A DNA stretch of 64,000 bases. It comes from Gemmatimonadota bacterium. GTDB lineage: Bacteria; Gemmatimonadota; Gemmatimonadetes; Longimicrobiales; Gaopeijiaceae. Positions 45,447-62,412 of the stretch are shown one piece after another. The notes beneath the pieces were generated by a model that had not been told where the DNA came from, searched no databases, and saw nothing but the letters and a program-made list of their open reading frames with translations. Each line of letters opens with the position of its first letter. Within the stretch, counting starts at the first letter, position 1. The translations under genes and the position numbers were made by a program. Location: assembly GCA_022560615.1 (NCBI GenBank), contig JADFSR010000005.1, positions 62,001-126,000 on the forward strand, written 5' to 3'.

Positions 45447-47036
45447 TCAGTTGATCCTGGGAGCCTGGAGGGCCGAACAGCCGGTCCCACGAGCATCCAA
45501 GCCACCCCTGTCGATAAAGTACTGGTTCTGCTCGTACTCGTCGCCGGCGAACAGTTGCCGGACCGCACCCAACAAGGCGAACCCCTGGAACGGTGTGTCT
45601 CCCTGGCGCCGGGGGAACCAGAGAATGTCATTGTTCTGGATCTTCGTCGACCAGTAGCGTGCTCCTCCGGCGAAGAACTCCCTCCTCCTCTCCTCCATGA
45701 GCATGGAGCGGACCGCGGTGCCGTCGGCCAAGAGCGTCGTCTGATACGCCCCCGAAATGAGCGGCAAGCCGCTGTGCGTCCGGAGAATGTTCACCAAGTC
45801 GATGGCACCCTGCAGGTTCCCGGTCGAGTGCGCGAAATCGGCCTCGATGAGCCGCATCTCCTGCCAGCTCGAGTACGCGATGTCATCGTCGTTCGCCGAG
45901 TACTTGTCAGGCACTTCCTCCGGCACCGGGCCCTGGATGGGCTGTATGTGGTGCTGGACCCGGCTGTCCGCCACCGCGCCATTGCCGGTCGAGATCGGAT
46001 CGCCATTGGCGTCCCGAACCTCCTCCGCCCACACAACCGGAAGGTTGCCGGCTTCGAGAGCCCGTCCGTCGGGCATGATGCCCAAGAAGAAGTACCCCGT
46101 GAACGGGATGGGATCGGGCCACAGCTGGCCCGTCGCCGGGTTGGGCCGTCGGATCGCCGGGTTCCACCAGGTGTTGATGCCGAGCATGCCGGAGAAACCC
46201 ACCTCCGTGGCCGCGTGGTAGATCTTGTTCCTCCGCGTGGCCCCCTGCTCTCGTGTCACCCAGGCCGTGAAGCCCTGTGGAATGGTCGCGGCGTCGGCCG
46301 CGGCGCCCGACAGATTGCCGTTCGCCCAACGGAACCGCGCCCGCATGGATATCGCCATGCTCTGGGCGCTGCTCGCGATGCCGTGCGGCATCGCAAAGTC
46401 GCCGAAGCTGGCGATATGCCCGAGCGCGTTGTTCGTGATCCAGCTCTCGGCCATGTTGAGCATGTCGGTCGGCGTCAAGAGGTCGCTACCGTCGATGGCC
46501 GCCTCGCACAGAAACTCCCCCATGTGGCCGAGGCTGGCCGCCACGTAGATCGCGGCGATCGCCGAGAGCCTCTCTCCGGGCGCACCGAGCTCCCACTCGT
46601 CCTGCATCCGGTCGTAGACGCCTCTCCCGGCCCCGGTCGCCGTGGCGACGAGTCGGTCCGGCGAAGTCGTGAGCATGGCCCTGGTGCCCATGATCTGGTC
46701 GAACCAGGCATCGCTCGACGAGCTCGAGTCACACGTGCCTGTGTCGGGCGTGTTGTCGTACACGTGCATGCCGCCCGCCACGCCCGCGATCGACTGCATG
46801 AGGTCCTCGGCGCCCATCCCCATGAGCCCGAACGCCGTATATCCGCACTCGAAGAGCGCGATCGCCGAGTTGACTTGCGTCTCGGCTGTCGCCTGCCCCT
46901 CGATCGCGGCATCCGTGAGCAGGTGGGGCAAACTCACCTCCAGCAGCTCGTCGCAGGCGCTCAGCGCGCCGAGCGACAGGCCGAGGCTGAGGCCCACGGT
47001 GACCTTCCCCCATCCCTTCCCTGTCATCGTCCTCAT
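45447..47036 (-). CDS. SusD/RagB-family outer-membrane lipoprotein
   Basis: ATG at 47036 shares its A with the SusC stop (TGATG), so translation is coupled; 529 residues. The lipobox is LGALSAC. Helical SusD-like features include DAAIEGQATAETQVNSAIAL, AAIYVAASLGHMGEFLCEAA, EADFAHSTGNLQGAIDLVNI and LMEERRREFFAGGARYWSTK, the last being the conserved C-terminal SusD segment. It should cap the SusC barrel and capture substrate at the cell surface. Substrate unknown. Confidence 0.88.
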   Translation of the reverse strand: MRTMTGKGWGKVTVGLSLGLSLGALSACDELLEVSLPHLLTDAAIEGQATAETQVNSAIALFECGYTAFGLMGMGAEDLMQSIAGVAGGMHVYDNTPDTGTCDSSSSSDAWFDQIMGTRAMLTTSPDRLVATATGAGRGVYDRMQDEWELGAPGERLSAIAAIYVAASLGHMGEFLCEAAIDGSDLLTPTDMLNMAESWITNNALGHIASFGDFAMPHGIASSAQSMAISMRARFRWANGNLSGAAADAATIPQGFTAWVTREQGATRRNKIYHAATEVGFSGMLGINTWWNPAIRRPNPATGQLWPDPIPFTGYFFLGIMPDGRALEAGNLPVVWAEEVRDANGDPISTGNGAVADSRVQHHIQPIQGPVPEEVPDKYSANDDDIAYSSWQEMRLIEADFAHSTGNLQGAIDLVNILRTHSGLPLISGAYQTTLLADGTAVRSMLMEERRREFFAGGARYWSTKIQNNDILWFPRRQGDTPFQGFALLGAVRQLFAGDEYEQNQYFIDRGGLDARGTGCSALQAPRIN

Positions 47037-50000
47037 CAGAACGTCACCCGCAGCGTCAGGTTCAAGCTCGTGAGCGGCGGGGTCTCCCAGTAGTTGCTGG
47101 TCCCGGAGAGAGACGACGTGCCGTACTCGGGATCGGCGATCGACTGCCCGTAGATGTTGTCCTGCCTCTGCCAGATCGTCCACAGGTTTCTGGCCGAAAC
47201 CGCCAAGGAAGCACGCGAAGCTCCCATGCCCTCGATCCACGCCTGCGGCAGCGTGAAGCGCGCACCGACCTCACGGAGCTTCCAGAAGTCCGCGTCGAAA
47301 TACGTCTTCGTGCGGGTAAACTGGCCTCCGGGGTTGAGCTCATCACTGTACGACCAAATCGGGTCGTTCTCGAGCCTGGAAGCCTTCGTATTGTTGTAGA
47401 CGTGGCCCCACTGGCCGCCGTTATCGGTGTGCGTCTTGCCGTACTTGCCCTCGGCCAGCGCGAAGAACTGAAGCTGGTTGCCGAGCAGGCTGATTCTGGG
47501 TGCCACGCTGAAGGTGTTCGTAAAGAACGACCGGCCGACGTAGATGTTCTGGTTCGGAATGTCTGCGCAGGGCAGAGCCGCGCCGCCCTCGATACGGCCC
47601 CACTTCTCCGGATCCGCGGCGCCCTCGGGAGCCAAGCTGATGCCCTCGTCGCACTCCGCGCTCATCCTCTGGCCGAACGGGTTCCTGCGGTCGCCGTCGG
47701 GGTCGAAGCGCGCAGCCACCACGATGTCACCTTCGTTGTGGTTGGGATACGGCAGGCCGAGCGCGATGCGCGTCGTGCCCGGGTAGGCACCCAGGCTGAT
47801 GATCTTGTTGTTCGTATAGTCGGCCGCGAGATCGAGGTCGAACGAGAAGGCTGAGTTCTCGTAGACCCGGGCGCCGACGATCGCCTCCCAGCCCCAGTTG
47901 TCGATCCGGCCCAGGTTCGTCGAGACCGAGCCCGGGAAGCCGAAGCTCGACGGTACCGCGATATTCAGCAGCGCGTCCTCGTCTTTCCGCCAGTAATGGG
48001 TGACCTCAGCCGAGATGCGATCATCGAACAGCGCAGCATCGAAGCCCAGCTCGAGCTCCGTGCTCACCTCAGGCTTGATGCCCGGGTTGCCCGGGCTCGA
48101 CGGCCGGATGGCCGCGGTCCCGCCCGGCCCGGGAATCGCCCGGTAGATGTTCTGGCCGGAGGTGGCGGACGGCTGGCGACCCGCCTGCCCCCACGCTCCG
48201 CGTACGCGGAGCGAGTTGAGCAGGTCGAAGTTCCAGAAGCTTTCCTCGGACACGACCCACGTGCCCGAGACCTTCGGGTACTTCTGCGCCGGAGCGTCAA
48301 CGCCGAACGTCGAGTTGTCGTCGAAGCGCATCGCGCCGACCACGAAGATCCGACCGTTCCAGCTCACCTCTTCCTGGACGTAGAAGCCCAGGGACCTGTT
48401 CTGGACGAGCGCGTAGCGGGTGGTGATCGTGGAGGGGGACAGTTGGTTGATCGTGGTCGACAACGGCGAAGCGAAGCCGGTTCCGTTGCTGGCGAAGAAG
48501 TCCTGTTCGTCCGCGTAGTACTGGGCTCCGAACGACGACTTGAGCCCCCACGCATCGCTCACGTCGGTGTCCAGCGTGAGCGAGTAATCGAAGCTGAGAT
48601 TCGTCTGCACGGGTCTTTCGTATACCATCGTCCCGTCCACCGTCTCGGAGTACACCGACGCCCAAGTGTCCTTGAAGTCGGTCAAGTTCTCCGGCACGGG
48701 GCCCGCTTCCAACGGGAACAGGTTCCGGTTGGTGTCCCAGCCCTTGTCGATCCCGACGACGAGCCGCTGCGTGAGCGAAGACGTGATACCCGCGAAACCG
48801 AAGTCACCGGACTGGAAGTTCAGCGTCGCGGACCCCGTGAAGCGCGTGTAGTCCCGCGTGGCTTCGATGTCGGCCACGTCCGAAGGCAGGTGCTCCTGGA
48901 AGCCACCGAGACGGGCGTTGGCGCGCGAGCTCTTGGACCCGTCGAACGGATTGATGCGGTCCAGATAAAAGCCGTTGGACCAGAGCAGGTCCTGCCAGAG
49001 TCCGCCGTCGGAGATGGTCGGAGCCGCGAACCTCGTGTATCCGTCCACGAACCCTGTGGACATGTCGAGCGAGAACTTGTCCGAGAAGACTACGCCCACG
49101 TTGCCGCGGATCCTGAACGTCTCGTCCTTGTTGTACCAGACGATGCCCTCTTCCTCCTCGTAATTGGCCGAGAGGAAGTAACGGATCGACTGCGTGCCTC
49201 CGCGCACGTCCACGTTGTAGCTCTGGTTGAGACCGTTCTGATAGAGGTTTTCGGTAGGCCAGGGGAAGTATCCCTCCCGGATATACCGGTTCGCCTCGTT
49301 GTACATGTTGTAGCCCGCGAGTTCCGCTTCGGTTGAGCAGTCCGTCGGACCCGGGCTCGGGTCCGTCGGGCACGTAAACATGTCGCCCAGCCTGCCGGCT
49401 GGATTCCTCAGGTAGTTGGTCCCCTGCTTGATCGAGAAGTTGAACTGGGGGGCGCCCTCGCGTCCCTTCTTGGTGATGATCTGGATCACACCGGCCGACG
49501 CCTCGGTTCCGTACAGGCTCGCCGCCGCCGGTCCCTTGATGATCTCGATGCTCTCGATGTCCTCGGGGTTGAAGTCGTCGAGCACGTTCACGTTGTCGCC
49601 GCTACCGAGGTTGGGGCCCGCTTCCGGGTCGTTGTTGACCCGGACGCCGTCCACGTAGACGAGCGGCTGATTGCGCGTGAAGCTGAAGCTTCCGACGCCC
49701 CGGATCGTGATCGGCGAGCCGGTCCCCACGTTTCCGCTCAGTCGCGCGAACTGGAGGCCGGGGGTTCGTCCGGACAGCAGGTCCTGCATGTTCGAGATCG
49801 CCACGTTCTGGACGATGTCGCTCACGTCCACCGTGGTGACCGTGTTCCCGATGGCCCGCCGCTGAGTACCGCCCGGCGTTCCGGTAACGATGATCTCGTC
49901 GAGGCTGAGCGCTTCTTCCGTGATCTGGAAGTCCTGCGCCATCGTCTCGCCAGCCGCCACCGATAGTTGCACGGTGACCGTGCGGTACCCGATCCGTTGG

Positions 50001-50248
50001 ACCGTCAGGGTATGCGTTCCGATGGGTACGTTGAGGAGGAGGTACGAGCCGTTCTGCCGTGTCAGCCCGCCCAAATCAAGCTCCGCGATGAAGACCTGTG
50101 CCGCGGCCACCGGGTTGCCGGTCTGACTGTCGCTGACTCGACCGGTTATCGAACCGCCCTGGGCCGCGAGATCGGGCGGCGCGAAAAGCAGCACGGCTGC
50201 CAGCGCCCCCAGAGCTAGTGTCATACGCAAACGGATAAATCGATACAT
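47036..50248 (-). CDS. SusC/RagA-family TonB-linked outer-membrane transporter
   Basis: The 1070-residue product has GGAGGAG before the ATG and a signal peptide. CarboxypepD_reg domain (ITGRVSDSQTGNPVAAAQVF) near 33-115; TonB-plug (IQNVAISNMQDLLSGRTPGL-like segment, ITIRGVGSFSFTRNQPLVYV, GPAAASLYGTEASAGVIQII) near 140-265; then a long beta-barrel closing with SLNLTLRVTF, an aromatic-terminated last strand. With SusD it imports an oligomeric nutrient powered by TonB. Two TonB genes lie upstream in the window. No glycan enzyme is adjacent; the M28-like peptidases elsewhere make peptides possible substrates. Confidence 0.9.
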   Translation of the reverse strand: MYRFIRLRMTLALGALAAVLLFAPPDLAAQGGSITGRVSDSQTGNPVAAAQVFIAELDLGGLTRQNGSYLLLNVPIGTHTLTVQRIGYRTVTVQLSVAAGETMAQDFQITEEALSLDEIIVTGTPGGTQRRAIGNTVTTVDVSDIVQNVAISNMQDLLSGRTPGLQFARLSGNVGTGSPITIRGVGSFSFTRNQPLVYVDGVRVNNDPEAGPNLGSGDNVNVLDDFNPEDIESIEIIKGPAAASLYGTEASAGVIQIITKKGREGAPQFNFSIKQGTNYLRNPAGRLGDMFTCPTDPSPGPTDCSTEAELAGYNMYNEANRYIREGYFPWPTENLYQNGLNQSYNVDVRGGTQSIRYFLSANYEEEEGIVWYNKDETFRIRGNVGVVFSDKFSLDMSTGFVDGYTRFAAPTISDGGLWQDLLWSNGFYLDRINPFDGSKSSRANARLGGFQEHLPSDVADIEATRDYTRFTGSATLNFQSGDFGFAGITSSLTQRLVVGIDKGWDTNRNLFPLEAGPVPENLTDFKDTWASVYSETVDGTMVYERPVQTNLSFDYSLTLDTDVSDAWGLKSSFGAQYYADEQDFFASNGTGFASPLSTTINQLSPSTITTRYALVQNRSLGFYVQEEVSWNGRIFVVGAMRFDDNSTFGVDAPAQKYPKVSGTWVVSEESFWNFDLLNSLRVRGAWGQAGRQPSATSGQNIYRAIPGPGGTAAIRPSSPGNPGIKPEVSTELELGFDAALFDDRISAEVTHYWRKDEDALLNIAVPSSFGFPGSVSTNLGRIDNWGWEAIVGARVYENSAFSFDLDLAADYTNNKIISLGAYPGTTRIALGLPYPNHNEGDIVVAARFDPDGDRRNPFGQRMSAECDEGISLAPEGAADPEKWGRIEGGAALPCADIPNQNIYVGRSFFTNTFSVAPRISLLGNQLQFFALAEGKYGKTHTDNGGQWGHVYNNTKASRLENDPIWSYSDELNPGGQFTRTKTYFDADFWKLREVGARFTLPQAWIEGMGASRASLAVSARNLWTIWQRQDNIYGQSIADPEYGTSSLSGTSNYWETPPLTSLNLTLRVTF

Positions 50249-50627: not shown

Positions 50628-52319
50628 ATGAGCGCGATTCTGCTCATGGCCATTGGGCTCGGGGCGTTCACGGTGGGCTACATCTTCTACTCGCGCTTCA
50701 TCTCGGAGCGAGTCTTCCAATTGAGTTCGGACTTCCGGACGCCGGCCCACACCCTGGAGGACGGGGTGGACTTCGTGCCCACCAACCGGTGGGTCCTGTG
50801 GGGACACCACTTCACTTCCGTGGCAGGTGCCGCGCCCATCGTGGGCCCCGCGATAGCCGTGGTGTGGGGTTGGCTGCCCGCGTTTCTGTGGGTCACGCTG
50901 GGGACGGTGTTCTTTGCGGGAATCCACGATGCCGGAGCCCTCTGGGCCAGCGTGCGCAACGAAGGCAAATCCATTGGGGCTCTCACCGAGGTGGTGGTCG
51001 GAAAGAGGGCTCGCTCCCTCTTCATGATCGTCATCTTCCTGCTGCTCCTGATGGTGAACGCGGTGTTCGCCATCATCATCGCCGGGCTCTTCGTGAGCTT
51101 CCCGAGCAGCGTGATCCCGGCCTGGTTCGTGATCGGCGTCGCGATCACCATCGGCTACCTGCTCTACCGTAAGGGCGTCCCGCTCCTGTGGCCTTCCATC
51201 ATCGGCGTCGTGCTCCTGTACGGATCGATGTTCGTGGGCGTCGCGCTACCGCTGACCCTTCCGGAAACCGTCCTCGGGCTGGGCGCACCGAGCATGTGGG
51301 TCCTCGTCCTGTTCGCATACGCCGCCGTCGCTTCGCTGCTCCCGGTCTGGCTTCTCCTCCAGCCTCGCGACTACATCAACGGGCTCCAGCTCTTCATCGG
51401 GCTGGGCATCTTCTTCCTGGCGGTTCTGCTTGCGAACCCGACCGTGGTGGCGCCGGCCATCAACGCGTCGCTCCCGGACGACGTACCGCCCATGATCCCG
51501 CTGCTCTTCGTGACGATTGCCTGCGGCGCGATCTCCGGCTTCCATGGGTTGGTGTCGTCGGGGACGACTTCGAAGCAGATCAACAACGAGCAGGACGTAC
51601 GCTTCGTGGGCTTCCTGGGCACGGTGGGCGAGGGCGCCCTGGCCCTAGCGGCGATCATCGCGTGCACTGCGGGCTTTGCTACGCAGGTGGACTGGCAGAG
51701 CTACTACACCTCGTTCGCCTCGGGAGGACTGCTGGCGTTCGTGCAAGGCGGCGGGGGCATCCTCGCTGCTGGTCTCGGGCTACCGATCGAGTACGGCGAG
51801 ACGCTCCTGGCGGTAATGGCGATCCTCTTCGCCGCCACGACGATGGACACGGGGGTCCGGCTACAGCGCTACATCGTTCAGGAGTGGGGGACGATCTACG
51901 ATATCCCGGCGCTCACGGGGAAGGGGCTGTCCACCGGCTTGGCGGTTGGCAGCTGCCTGGTCCTGGCCTTCGGAGCGGGGGGTGGAGCCGGAACGGGGGG
52001 CCTCGTCATCTGGCCCTTGTTCGGCACCACCAATCAGCTCCTGGCCGGACTCACGCTGCTCGTACTGAGCGTCTTCCTTCTCAAGAAGGGGCGGCCCACG
52101 ATCTACACACTCGCCCCCATGGTCTTCATCCTCGGCATGACGGTGCTCGCGCTGCTCTGGCAGCTCCGGGCCTTCTGGGAGCTGGGCAGCTACTTCCTGG
52201 TCACGCTCGACGTCGTGATCCTCGCGACCACGATCTGGGTGGCCCTCGAGTCGCTGACCGCGCTGCGGAAGGCCGCGCGAGCGCGCCGCCGGGTGAACCC
52301 CGGCGCGCTGGCGCGGTAG
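50628..52319 (+). CDS. cstA: Carbon starvation protein CstA (peptide/pyruvate transporter)
   Basis: The 563-residue protein has around 14-16 hydrophobic segments. CstA landmarks: TNRWVLWGHHFTSVAGAAPI, VGPAIAVVWGWLPAFLWVTL, FFAGIHDAGALWASVRNEGK, LLLQPRDYINGLQLFIGLGI, then ISGFHGLVSSGTTSKQINNE and WPLFGTTNQLLAGLTL. It is shorter than the about 700-residue E. coli protein. E. coli CstA and BtsT take up pyruvate and work with small proteins (YbdD, YjiX) that, as I recall, end in Cys-Cys. Here the downstream genes are a thioredoxin-like CC protein, a CC-ending protein and an ArsA ATPase. Confidence 0.92.
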   Translation: MSAILLMAIGLGAFTVGYIFYSRFISERVFQLSSDFRTPAHTLEDGVDFVPTNRWVLWGHHFTSVAGAAPIVGPAIAVVWGWLPAFLWVTLGTVFFAGIHDAGALWASVRNEGKSIGALTEVVVGKRARSLFMIVIFLLLLMVNAVFAIIIAGLFVSFPSSVIPAWFVIGVAITIGYLLYRKGVPLLWPSIIGVVLLYGSMFVGVALPLTLPETVLGLGAPSMWVLVLFAYAAVASLLPVWLLLQPRDYINGLQLFIGLGIFFLAVLLANPTVVAPAINASLPDDVPPMIPLLFVTIACGAISGFHGLVSSGTTSKQINNEQDVRFVGFLGTVGEGALALAAIIACTAGFATQVDWQSYYTSFASGGLLAFVQGGGGILAAGLGLPIEYGETLLAVMAILFAATTMDTGVRLQRYIVQEWGTIYDIPALTGKGLSTGLAVGSCLVLAFGAGGGAGTGGLVIWPLFGTTNQLLAGLTLLVLSVFLLKKGRPTIYTLAPMVFILGMTVLALLWQLRAFWELGSYFLVTLDVVILATTIWVALESLTALRKAARARRRVNPGALAR

Positions 52320-52328
52320 AAACGAATC

Positions 52329-52778
52329 ATGCGAAATACGGAAGCGATCGCCCGGCCGAGCGTCATACTGATCCGGGAGTGGGAGACCCAGATGTCCTCC
52401 TCCGGATGCTGCGGCCGGTTGGAGGGCGACTTCCTGCTGCAAAGGGGAGAGCGATGTTTCCCCGAGCGGCGCGCGGTGATGGAGGCCATGGGCCCCCTGT
52501 ACCGAGACCTCCGCTCGCGCTACGGCGCCGCGCTCGAGATCACGGTGGTGGATCCACGAAACCTCATTTCCGTCATCGCCCTGCTTCTGCGTGACGCGCG
52601 CGCCCACCACGTCGGCATTCTGGACGCGCTGCGCACGCTGTTCCGTCTCAAGGTGAATACGGTCGTCGTGAACGGACGCCTCCTGGCCCGGGGGCGGTGG
52701 CCCGACCCCGCCAAGGTGTATGCCGCGCTGGGGGATCCACCGTCTGAGCGGGAGGAGGTCGTGGGTGGGGTGGCGTGA
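52329..52778 (+). CDS. Thioredoxin-like protein with a Gly-Cys-Cys-Gly motif
   Basis: The 149-residue product begins with a strand SVILIREW, then SSSGCCGRLEGDF with Cys27-Cys28 where a thioredoxin fold would place its active-site loop. Later strands and helices (AALEITVVDPRN, KVNTVVVNGRLLARGRW, PDPAKVYAALGD) complete a thioredoxin-like pattern. The vicinal cysteines and the ArsA-type ATPase two genes on recall ArsD, which hands As(III) to ArsA. This is an analogy, not a family assignment. Tightly packed: 9 bases after cstA and overlapping the next start. Confidence 0.7.
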   Translation: MRNTEAIARPSVILIREWETQMSSSGCCGRLEGDFLLQRGERCFPERRAVMEAMGPLYRDLRSRYGAALEITVVDPRNLISVIALLLRDARAHHVGILDALRTLFRLKVNTVVVNGRLLARGRWPDPAKVYAALGDPPSEREEVVGGVA

Positions 52779-53028
52779 ACGGCTGGCGCGGGCTGGGGAG
52801 CTCGTCAGAGAGTTCTACGAGGTCCGTCACCGCGGGGCGCTCGCGCGGGAGCGCCGAGATGAGGACGACCTCTTCATGCTCCTGGTCTTCTCGGAGATGA
52901 TGGGGATCGAAAACCCGTCGAGCTACTACACGCTGGAGCTGCTGCCCCTCTTGTACGAGGGTTTCCACGAGTGGCACATCCGCATGGGCATGGATCACTC
53001 CCCATTCGAGCACTTTCGCTGCTGCTAG
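52765..53028 (+). CDS. Small protein ending in Cys-Cys (CC-star type)
   Basis: GTG at 52765 has GGAGG upstream and gives 87 residues; ATG at 52720 is a less likely alternative. A charged N-terminus leads to EDDLFMLLVFSEMMGIENPS, YYTLELLPLLYEGFHEWHIR and a C-terminus FEHFRCC directly before the stop. I associate this with a family named 'cory-CC-star', from memory. E. coli CstA partners YbdD/YjiX also end in CC as I recall, although the rest of the sequence differs. The terminal cysteines could bind metal, carry a modification or contact the transporter. Confidence 0.72.
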   Translation: MGWRERLARAGELVREFYEVRHRGALARERRDEDDLFMLLVFSEMMGIENPSSYYTLELLPLLYEGFHEWHIRMGMDHSPFEHFRCC

Positions 53029-53062
53029 CCGACCGCCAGTCCACTAGGACGCCCACCTGTCC

Positions 53063-54079
53063 ATGACCCATCTCGATCTGGCGGGCCGCTCGATCCTCTT
53101 CGTGGGCGGCAAAGGCGGCGTGGGAAAGAGCACCGCCGCTGGAGCCCTCGCCGTGAGCATGGCCGAAGCGGGTGAGCGGATCCTCCTGGTATCGACCGAC
53201 CCCGCGCACTCTCTGGGAGACCTGTTCGGGATGTCCATCGGCGACCGAGAGCGCGAGATCTTGCCCGGGCTTCACGCTCTGGAGATCGATCCGGAGGCGG
53301 AAGTGGAGAGCTACCTCGCTCGCGTGAAGGCAACGATGAGGCAGTACGTGCAACCGGCCATGTACTCCGAGATCGAGCGTCAAATTGAGCTGACCCGCCA
53401 CTCACCCGGCGCCGAGGAGGCCGCGCTGATGGATCGTGTGACGGCTCTCATGGACGAGGGGCCCCAGCGGCACGATCGCGTCATCTTCGACACAGCTCCC
53501 ACGGGCCACACGCTTCGTTTGCTCGCGCTCCCGGAGATCATGGCGGCGTGGACCGAGGGGCTGCTCCGGAGCCGCGACCGGTCCGATTCTCTGGGCAAGG
53601 CGGTGGACCGGCTCCAGCGACGCAAGGAGTCCAGCGGCGACGACCTCTCCTGGTTCGACGACGTCAAGGAGGCCCGCGGGGACGAGCGCACTCGGAAGAT
53701 CCGCGAAGTGCTGTTGGAGCGCCGGCGCCGGTTCTCCCGAGCCAGACGGCTCCTGCTGGACCCCGAGGTGACTGCCTTCGTGCTCGTCCTCATCCCAGAG
53801 AAGCTCCCTATTCTCGAGAGCGAAAAGACGCTCGAGGTCCTCCGCAACCACAAAGTCCCGGTGGCCGGAGTGGTGGTGAACCGGGTGCTGCCCGACGTGC
53901 CACTGGGTGACTTCCTGGAGAGCCGGCGCGCGCAGGAAGCCGAATACCTGGAGCGCGTGGACCGAAGTTTCGCCGAGCTCCCCCGCGTGAGGGTGCCGCT
54001 GTTGTCGCGCGACGTGGTAGGGATCGAGGCGATCAGGGAGGTGGGGGGGTATCTGGCCTCCCCACGGCCAACGCACTAA
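53063..54079 (+). CDS. ArsA/Get3-family ATPase, cysteine-free
   Basis: The 338-residue, single-domain ATPase has the deviant P-loop FVGGKGGVGKSTAAGAL (near 13-29), switch region LVSTDPAHSLGDLF, and IFDTAPTGHTLRLLALPEIM. These place it in the ArsA/Get3 (anion-transporting or tail-anchored-protein-targeting) family of dimeric P-loop ATPases. No cysteine occurs anywhere, so neither the arsenite-binding cysteines of E. coli ArsA nor the CxxC of eukaryotic Get3 is present. It is the last gene of the CstA module and probably drives a conformational or delivery step for the two CC proteins. Arsenic transport is unlikely. Confidence 0.88.
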   Translation: MTHLDLAGRSILFVGGKGGVGKSTAAGALAVSMAEAGERILLVSTDPAHSLGDLFGMSIGDREREILPGLHALEIDPEAEVESYLARVKATMRQYVQPAMYSEIERQIELTRHSPGAEEAALMDRVTALMDEGPQRHDRVIFDTAPTGHTLRLLALPEIMAAWTEGLLRSRDRSDSLGKAVDRLQRRKESSGDDLSWFDDVKEARGDERTRKIREVLLERRRRFSRARRLLLDPEVTAFVLVLIPEKLPILESEKTLEVLRNHKVPVAGVVVNRVLPDVPLGDFLESRRAQEAEYLERVDRSFAELPRVRVPLLSRDVVGIEAIREVGGYLASPRPTH

Positions 54080-60906: not shown

Positions 60907-62412
60907 CTATCGGGGCCGACCGCGACCGCGCATGCCGCCCATGCCGCGTGTCGAGCCGCCGAACGGGTTGCCTCCGCCCATGCGCTCACGCATGCGGTCG
61001 AGGTACGCCTGCTGCTGGGCCATGAGCTGAGCCGCACCGACGACGACCAGCACGTCGCCTTCCTCGACGCCGCTCACGATCTCCGTACGGTCCCAGTCGT
61101 TCAGACCGATCTGTATGAGCCTGGGTTGCGGCACGCTGTCGGCGCCCATCACGAAGACCACTGCGGAGCGGGATTCACGAGGCGGACCGCCGTCGCCCCC
61201 CATGTCACCGAATCCTGCCATCGCGCCCTGTATGCGCGCGCGCATCTCTTCCTGCGTGATCTCACCGGACTGACCGCCACCCCGCTGGCCACGTCCAGCA
61301 CTGTGGTCTCCGCCCTGTCCACCGCCGAATCCACCTTCCCCGCCTCGTCGGCCACCCCGGCCAGCGCCTTCGCCTCCCCCACCGCGTCCACCCATGGCGG
61401 CATACCCGCCGAAGCCACCTCGGCCGGCGCTCATGAACTCGGACAGATCCATGTTGTCGACGTCCAGGCCGAGCGCCATCGCCGCCGGACCGACGTCCGT
61501 CGTCTTCACGATCGCGTTGTTGGGCACGACCAGCACGTTCACCGCCTCATCCACCATCACTTCGACTTCGGCGTTCATGCCCGGCTTCAACAGCCCTCCG
61601 CGATTGTCGATGCTCACGATGACCGGGAACATCGTCACGTTCTGTTCGACCGTCGCCTGCGGCTCGATCTTCTTGATCGCGCCGCGGAAGATGCGATCGG
61701 GGAACGCTTCCACCGTCACGTTCGCGACCATGCCGGGAGCGAGCTGGCCCATGTCCGTTTCGTCGACGAGCGTGCGAACCTGCATCTCGCGTAGGTTCGC
61801 CATCAGGAACAGCGTGGTGCCACCGGACACGTTGCCGGATGCGGACTGAATGACCATGCCCTCTTCGACGTTCTTCTGGATGATCGTGCCCGTCATCGGG
61901 GCCGTAATGCGCACGTCCTCGAGCTGCAGCACCGCGAGGTCGAAGTTCGTCTGAGCCTTCACGAGGTTAGCCCTCGAGTTGGCGTACTCGACCCGTGCCC
62001 CTTCGTGCTCCTGCGCCGTGATGACCTCCCGCGCGAGCAGTTGATTGGAGCGCTCGAGTTGGTCTTCGCCGATGTCGAACCGCACCTGCGCCACCTCGAG
62101 GTCCGCTTCCGTCTGATCGTAGCGGTTCTGCACGTCTCGAGGGTCGATGTCCGCGAGCAGCTGTCCGGGCCGTACCTCGTCGCCAATATCGACGTGCAAC
62201 CGCAGAATCTCGCCAGACGCCTTCGACTTGACCTCGACCTCGCGGATCGGTTCGATCGTACCAGTGGCCTCCGCGCTGATCAGGAGAGTGGCCCGCACGA
62301 CCTCGACCGTCTCGACGGTAGAGGCCGCTTCGGCAGCCTCACCGCCCTCGCAAGCGCTAGCCGTGACGAGGAGGAGGCCGAGAACAGCGCACCGTCCGAT
62401 CAACTTCGTCAT
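60907..62412 (-). CDS. MacA/HlyD-like periplasmic adaptor lipoprotein
   Basis: ATG at 62412 (overlapping the ATPase remnant stop by ATGA) gives 501 residues with a lipobox (LGLLLVTASAC). The biotinyl-lipoyl domain (VEVKSKASGEILRLHVDIGD, EVRPGQLLADIDPRD), an alpha-hairpin (NRYDQTEADLEVAQVRFDIG on) and ITAPMTGTIIQKNVEEGMVI are those of membrane-fusion proteins. A Gly/Arg-rich insertion (about residues 327-400) with many GGRGG-type units is unusual. It links the permease to an outer-membrane channel; none is encoded here. Confidence 0.87.
   Translation of the reverse strand: MTKLIGRCAVLGLLLVTASACEGGEAAEAASTVETVEVVRATLLISAEATGTIEPIREVEVKSKASGEILRLHVDIGDEVRPGQLLADIDPRDVQNRYDQTEADLEVAQVRFDIGEDQLERSNQLLAREVITAQEHEGARVEYANSRANLVKAQTNFDLAVLQLEDVRITAPMTGTIIQKNVEEGMVIQSASGNVSGGTTLFLMANLREMQVRTLVDETDMGQLAPGMVANVTVEAFPDRIFRGAIKKIEPQATVEQNVTMFPVIVSIDNRGGLLKPGMNAEVEVMVDEAVNVLVVPNNAIVKTTDVGPAAMALGLDVDNMDLSEFMSAGRGGFGGYAAMGGRGGGGEGAGRGGRRGGEGGFGGGQGGDHSAGRGQRGGGQSGEITQEEMRARIQGAMAGFGDMGGDGGPPRESRSAVVFVMGADSVPQPRLIQIGLNDWDRTEIVSGVEEGDVLVVVGAAQLMAQQQAYLDRMRERMGGGNPFGGSTRGMGGMRGRGRPR

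Follow-up and report, generated by a model that had tools for sequence, protein, structure and literature searches.

The 64,000-nucleotide stretch analyzed here (the window; positions 62,001 to 126,000 of contig JADFSR010000005.1 from a Gemmatimonadota bacterium) carries four packed genes, which encode a CstA-family transporter, a small protein with a GCCG motif (GCCG protein), a small protein of the cory-CC-star family ending in two Cys residues (CC-star), and an ArsA/Get3-type ATPase. The preferred reading, whose chances are judged to be about even, is that these genes specify a CstA importer that CC-star couples to an ArsA ATPase lacking Cys, with the dithiols serving as a redox- or metal-responsive switch. 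A more specific proposal is put forward only tentatively, namely that the Cys-free ArsA and a redox- or metal-sensing His2Cys2 site on CC-star control CstA, and that the GCCG proteins, a new thioredoxin-like family with a hitherto unlisted selenoprotein among its members, service this system. The three-gene core (cstA, CC-star and arsA) is already known; the GCCG protein, its selenocysteine (Sec) candidate and the His/Cys pattern are new. The module bears on the question of why transporters of the CstA family depend on small partners ending in CC.

In the window, all four genes were found on the plus strand with short or negative gaps, and three of the products could be assigned to the families named in the first-pass annotation (CstA, a CC protein and ArsA). 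The first gene, cstA (50628..52319, +), encodes a short-form CstA transporter of 563 aa that scores 453.7 bits against PF02554 (gathering cut-off 27). It is followed by the GCCG gene (52329..52778, +), whose 149-aa product is described as a small thioredoxin/ArsD-like member of an unnamed family on the basis of a family alignment, an AlphaFold2 (AF2) model and fold matches; its start is most likely the ATG at 52329, because relatives conserve the N-terminal strand SVILIREWExQM. Overlapping this gene by 14 nt, the CC-star gene (52765..53028, +; GTG start) encodes an 87-aa protein, probably CstX, which terminates in FRCC and is a clear member of the cory-CC-star family NF041419 (129.8 bits; cut-off 80). 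The last gene, arsA-like (53063..54079, +), encodes a single-domain ArsA/Get3 ATPase of 338 aa with scores of 265.5 bits against TIGR00345 (ArsA/Get3/TRC40; cut-off 135) and 247.1 bits against PF02374, in which the P-loop GGKGGVGKST and the motif DTAPTGHTLR are intact.

The proposal that ArsA and the CC protein are functionally tied to cstA depended on their linkage being conserved in other genomes, and it is conserved. Among 80 related loci from Gemmatimonadota, Gammaproteobacteria, Acidobacteriota, one actinomycete and others, the order cstA/CC-star/arsA is kept in 73; since these loci come from several phyla and share the gene order, the linkage is far beyond chance. The 149 genomes of the window's class include 48 with CC-star, 99 with CstA, 41 with DUF466 and 55 with an above-cut-off ArsA/Get3. 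ArsA adjoins the CC-star gene in 45 of the 48 cases, and CstA is linked in 45 of 48 as well. Several of the exceptions lie on short contigs, two of them (G086 and G089) have a single-domain ArsA elsewhere in the genome, and cstA was present elsewhere in all seven genomes checked in which a neighbor was missing from the locus.

The association of CstA with ArsA is not new: it was reported in 2010 by Castillo & Saier, who described 26 cstA-arsA associations, 24 of them with cstX (PMC2963123). In that study, CstX is a protein of about 90 aa never encountered without cstA, the trees of CstA, CstX and ArsA match, the single-domain ArsAs of cstA operons lack the three arsenic-related Cys residues, and no arsenic-resistance genes occur in cst operons. 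These operons resemble the module described here in having the same three genes and a single-domain ArsA without arsenic-binding Cys, and CstX is very likely CC-star; the GCCG protein, the joint loss of His and Cys, the exclusivity with DUF466 and the Sec case are not described there. Plasmid records already list a carbon starvation protein A, a cory-CC-star protein and an ArsA family ATPase side by side. A literature search found no use of the name cory-CC-star, and NF041419 has no assigned function.

In Escherichia coli, pyruvate uptake by CstA requires the small protein YbdD (PMC5847655), a member of DUF466. The CstA-YbdD and BtsT systems of E. coli (DUF466/PF04328; KCU-star NF033934) likewise combine a CstA-family transporter with a small partner bearing two conserved His residues and a C-terminal CC, in agreement with the earlier statement that partners of this type end in CC. 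These systems differ in using another CstA form, in lacking ArsA, and in having a small partner without detectable homology to CC-star. Predicted DUF466 members with a C-terminal Cys-Sec have been described (PMC4607533), and the family has been listed among KCU-star selenoproteins (PMC9312934).

Within the window's class, CC-star (48 genomes) and DUF466 (41 genomes) are mutually exclusive, with no genome shared (Fisher 8.5e-18, a value not corrected for phylogeny). Each partner set pairs with its own CstA form: the long form is present in all 41 DUF466 genomes and in none of the CC-star genomes, the CstA of the window is the different, shorter form, and both arrangements occur inside a single family (f6). 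As the two sets never co-occur, CC-star together with ArsA appears to replace YbdD in this class. Across 75 short CstAs, Cys299 in the motif ACGAISGFHG is invariant and Cys443 nearly so. Short CstA without CC-star and without DUF466 was seen in seven class genomes. Members of family f9 (L036-L040) carry a short CstA of about 35% identity with CC-star, ArsA and DUF466 not detected, and an FAD-dependent oxidoreductase-like gene often follows this CstA.

CC-star itself is a small protein, predicted to be helical, with HxxWH near its end and the C-terminal FRCC. Residues H67, W69, H70, C85 and C86 (numbering of the product of window positions 52768-53025) are invariant in the alignments. An HxxH near the tail is present in 117 of 117 CC-tailed family members and missing in 7 of 7 CC-less members, so that, judged from sequence, HxxH and CC behave as one site, jointly present and jointly lost. 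Considering that the CC-less members form one related group, the loss of both His and Cys may have been a single event. In DUF466, one His is found in 21 of 21 members, the second in 19 of 21, and CC in 21 of 21. This common two-His-two-Cys pattern suggests that the two partners, though unrelated, rely on equivalent chemistry, and two unrelated families that show the same pattern and exclude each other in one class offer a testable case of shared chemistry. No internal stops indicative of Sec were found in the tails of CC-star (48 class and 17 Actinomycetota members), although this analysis could miss a TGA situated right at the end of the gene, just ahead of its stop. A fold search with the low-confidence CC-star model gave no match. 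CC-less relatives were located at L235-L238 and L240-L244 (genomes G448, G593, G627 and G451), in some genomes as tandem pairs, and the ArsA beside two of them has STNPVHS in place of STDPAHS.

The ATPase had been described as free of Cys, and the window protein indeed has none; in 72 relatives no conserved Cys column exists, and 28 of the 72 are Cys-free. Against the arsenical pump-driving ArsA model TIGR04291, which describes a two-domain protein, the window ATPase reaches 159.9 bits, far from the equivalog value of 650, and the metal-binding Cys113, Cys172 and Cys422 of that model are missing. Family membership in ArsA/Get3 also invites the idea that this ATPase is a Get3-like targeting factor bringing CC-star or CstA to the membrane. 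This appears very improbable, given that CC-star is predicted to be helical, that its C-terminus is polar and charged and offers no tail anchor, that CstA is polytopic, and that in many bacteria CstA reaches the membrane although they have no ArsA. If the preferred reading of a switch-controlled CstA importer is true, the role of the ArsA/Get3 family would extend past arsenic and tail-anchored proteins to a soluble ATPase that serves a nutrient transporter specifically.

The GCCG protein matches no Pfam or NCBIfam family above chance, and its family profile finds nothing significant among Protein Data Bank (PDB) sequences. The family was seen in three phyla, and an initial restriction to Gemmatimonadota was overturned by actinomycete members. 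In Gemmatimonadota it occurs in 21 of 395 genomes, which have as many as three copies, often at sites distant from the module. In Actinomycetota it is present in 14 of 296 genomes (and in 11 of the 17 with an above-cut-off CC-star), and 13 of these 14 adjoin cstA: ten show the full order cstA-GCCG-CC-star-arsA, the same four-gene order as in Gemmatimonadota, and three show cstA-GCCG with CC-star and ArsA not detected nearby. In one more of the 14, the contig begins within the GCCG gene. The GCCG gene lies directly before CC-star in 7 of the 80 loci, three of which have no adjacent cstA. The two di-Cys proteins, named together in the first-pass annotation, are not equivalent: CC-star is a near-obligate partner, and GCCG is accessory and also occurs alone. 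Among the Gemmatimonadota copies of the GCCG family that lie apart from any CstA module (L178-L187, L192, L193 and L195) are some that, by eye, adjoin a hydrolase/OsmC-like gene or electron-transfer flavoprotein-like genes, and two paralogs (L174 and L175; G254 and G258) lack both GCCG and the further family motif DPRN.

In an alignment of 41 family members, the first Cys is conserved in 38 and the second in 37, and the DPRN residues in 38 to 41. In the AF2 model (mean pLDDT 72), the vicinal Cys pair follows the first strand, and the predicted order of elements fits the thioredoxin/ArsD arrangement beta-alpha-beta-alpha-beta-beta-alpha. Foldseek and VIA-align searches place thioredoxins and ArsD on top, none of them significant alone (top Foldseek matches have E of at least 0.2). 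The resemblance to an ArsD-ArsA-pump system proposed earlier thereby receives support from a predicted thioredoxin/ArsD-like fold, although ArsD identity by sequence was rejected, with no Pfam match and an hhalign probability of 15-22 over only 31-33 C-terminal columns. Like the ArsD-ArsA-ArsB pump, the module would combine a thioredoxin-like small protein with vicinal Cys, an ArsA-family ATPase and a membrane transporter; unlike it, its ArsA is single-domain and without metal-binding Cys, its transporter is unrelated, and the likeness to ArsD is by predicted fold only. An alternative built on this comparison is a soft-metal or thiol-adduct module, in which a metal ion or adduct would be bound by the CC proteins and then transported, itself or with its carrier, through CstA. 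Two His and two Cys residues acting as one site would suit such binding, and the GCCG model does match ArsD among thioredoxin folds (3kgk, Foldseek probability 0.69; 3mwh, Z 7.1). Nevertheless, the absence of conserved Cys from ArsA, the weak profile match of GCCG to ArsD, the lack of arsenic-resistance genes in cst operons, and the standing of CstA as a known organic-nutrient transporter make it decidedly improbable.

A candidate selenoprotein was identified in Cytobacillus spongiae (NZ_CP089998.1; locus L137, 501.8-504.3 kb), where cstA, a GCCG homologue, CC-star and arsA follow one another. Public annotation starts this homologue too late, downstream of a TGA at L137:5648-5650. In frame upstream of the annotated start, the sequence reads MVEIMMIRSELEVGMG-TGA-CGGVSGDG, with the TGA exactly at the first, near-invariant Cys of GCCG. 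In a tblastn search, the window GCCG protein aligns across this TGA (E 1e-5), a profile built without the Cytobacillus sequence still matches it (4.7e-12), and the upstream ATG is preceded by a strong Shine-Dalgarno sequence. The same replicon carries selA, selD and tRNA-Sec (anticodon TCA); this 690-kb "plasmid", which also holds acnA and spore genes, looks chromosomal. The 40 nt from the UGA are predicted to form a structure of -13.4 kcal/mol whose loop is GGUG; only 8 of 2003 TGAs have such a context. The homologue is therefore regarded as a candidate selenoprotein from one genome. A different account holds that the TGA reflects an error in sequencing or the stop of a pseudogene, and that GCCG is a minor, dispensable neighbor. 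In its favor, no further TGA-containing homologue was found in searches of plasmids and viral contigs that did not extend to Bacillota genomes, and the best SECIS-like loop begins at a distance of 15 nt from the UGA, slightly short of the published range of 16-37 (an alternative 7-bp hairpin with loop CGGGU at 20 nt reaches only -6.2 kcal/mol). This account is nonetheless unlikely in view of the position of the TGA at a near-invariant Cys, the homology that continues to either side of it, the ribosome-binding signal, the Sec genes on the same replicon, and the rarity of the predicted fold. Single-TGA flags in two further genomes were not counted as Sec sites, that in G123 being read as a normal terminal stop and that in G297 as probably the same. 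A candidate Sec at the GCCG Cys suggests that thiol chemistry controls the transporter and, if true, a new selenoprotein family would link the module to redox chemistry.

For the module as a whole, we infer a mechanism that extends to its substrate, its physical complexes, the direction of ATP coupling, the redox or metal role of the switch, and an oxidoreductase function of GCCG. The uptake system would be of the CstA family, of pyruvate/peptide type by homology, with CC-star and the ArsA-type ATPase taking the place of the usual small partner YbdD/DUF466. The Cys-free ArsA, probably a homodimer, would bind the helical core of CC-star and use ATP to load or activate CC-star on CstA; HxxH and CC would together make up one switch, responsive to redox state or to metal, by which the activity of CstA is set; and the GCCG protein would be an oxidoreductase devoted to the module, working through a thiol (in Cytobacillus, probably a selenol) and acting on either the CC tail or a Cys of CstA.

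Several results weigh against this scheme. Most modules have no GCCG gene, and some Gemmatimonadota copies of it stand alone, so that GCCG cannot be essential; AF2 confidence is low exactly at its Cys loop. No homology between CC-star and DUF466 was detected, CC-star has no Pfam match, and a direct hhalign comparison, with only 3 DUF466 rows, gave a probability of 0.7. In addition, CC-less CC-star relatives adjoin arsA-type genes in four genomes, with cstA nearby in two; CC chemistry is thus not needed for the association of ArsA, CC-star and CstA, which suggests that ArsA and CC-star may be associated without any His/Cys chemistry. The persistence of these paralogs beside ArsA and CstA, like the published co-clustering and matching trees, would fit the proposal of Castillo & Saier that ArsA energizes CstA with CstX as linker (PMC2963123), in which case ArsA would drive CstA directly as an ATP-driven pump, CC-star would provide the coupling and the Cys pairs would be incidental. 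However, CstA relatives transport without ArsA (E. coli CstA-YbdD, PMC5847655), one lineage has retained cstA although CC-star, ArsA and DUF466 all went undetected in it, and the strict conservation of HxxH and CC is left unexplained, so a direct pump is considered rather unlikely.

Single-domain ArsA genes were also observed in class genomes without CC-star or CstA (G129:C5:8437-9273 and G064:C101:8879-9727). In the window, a TonB-dependent receptor and SusD-like pair, recognized by eye, lies divergently upstream of cstA (45447-50248, -).

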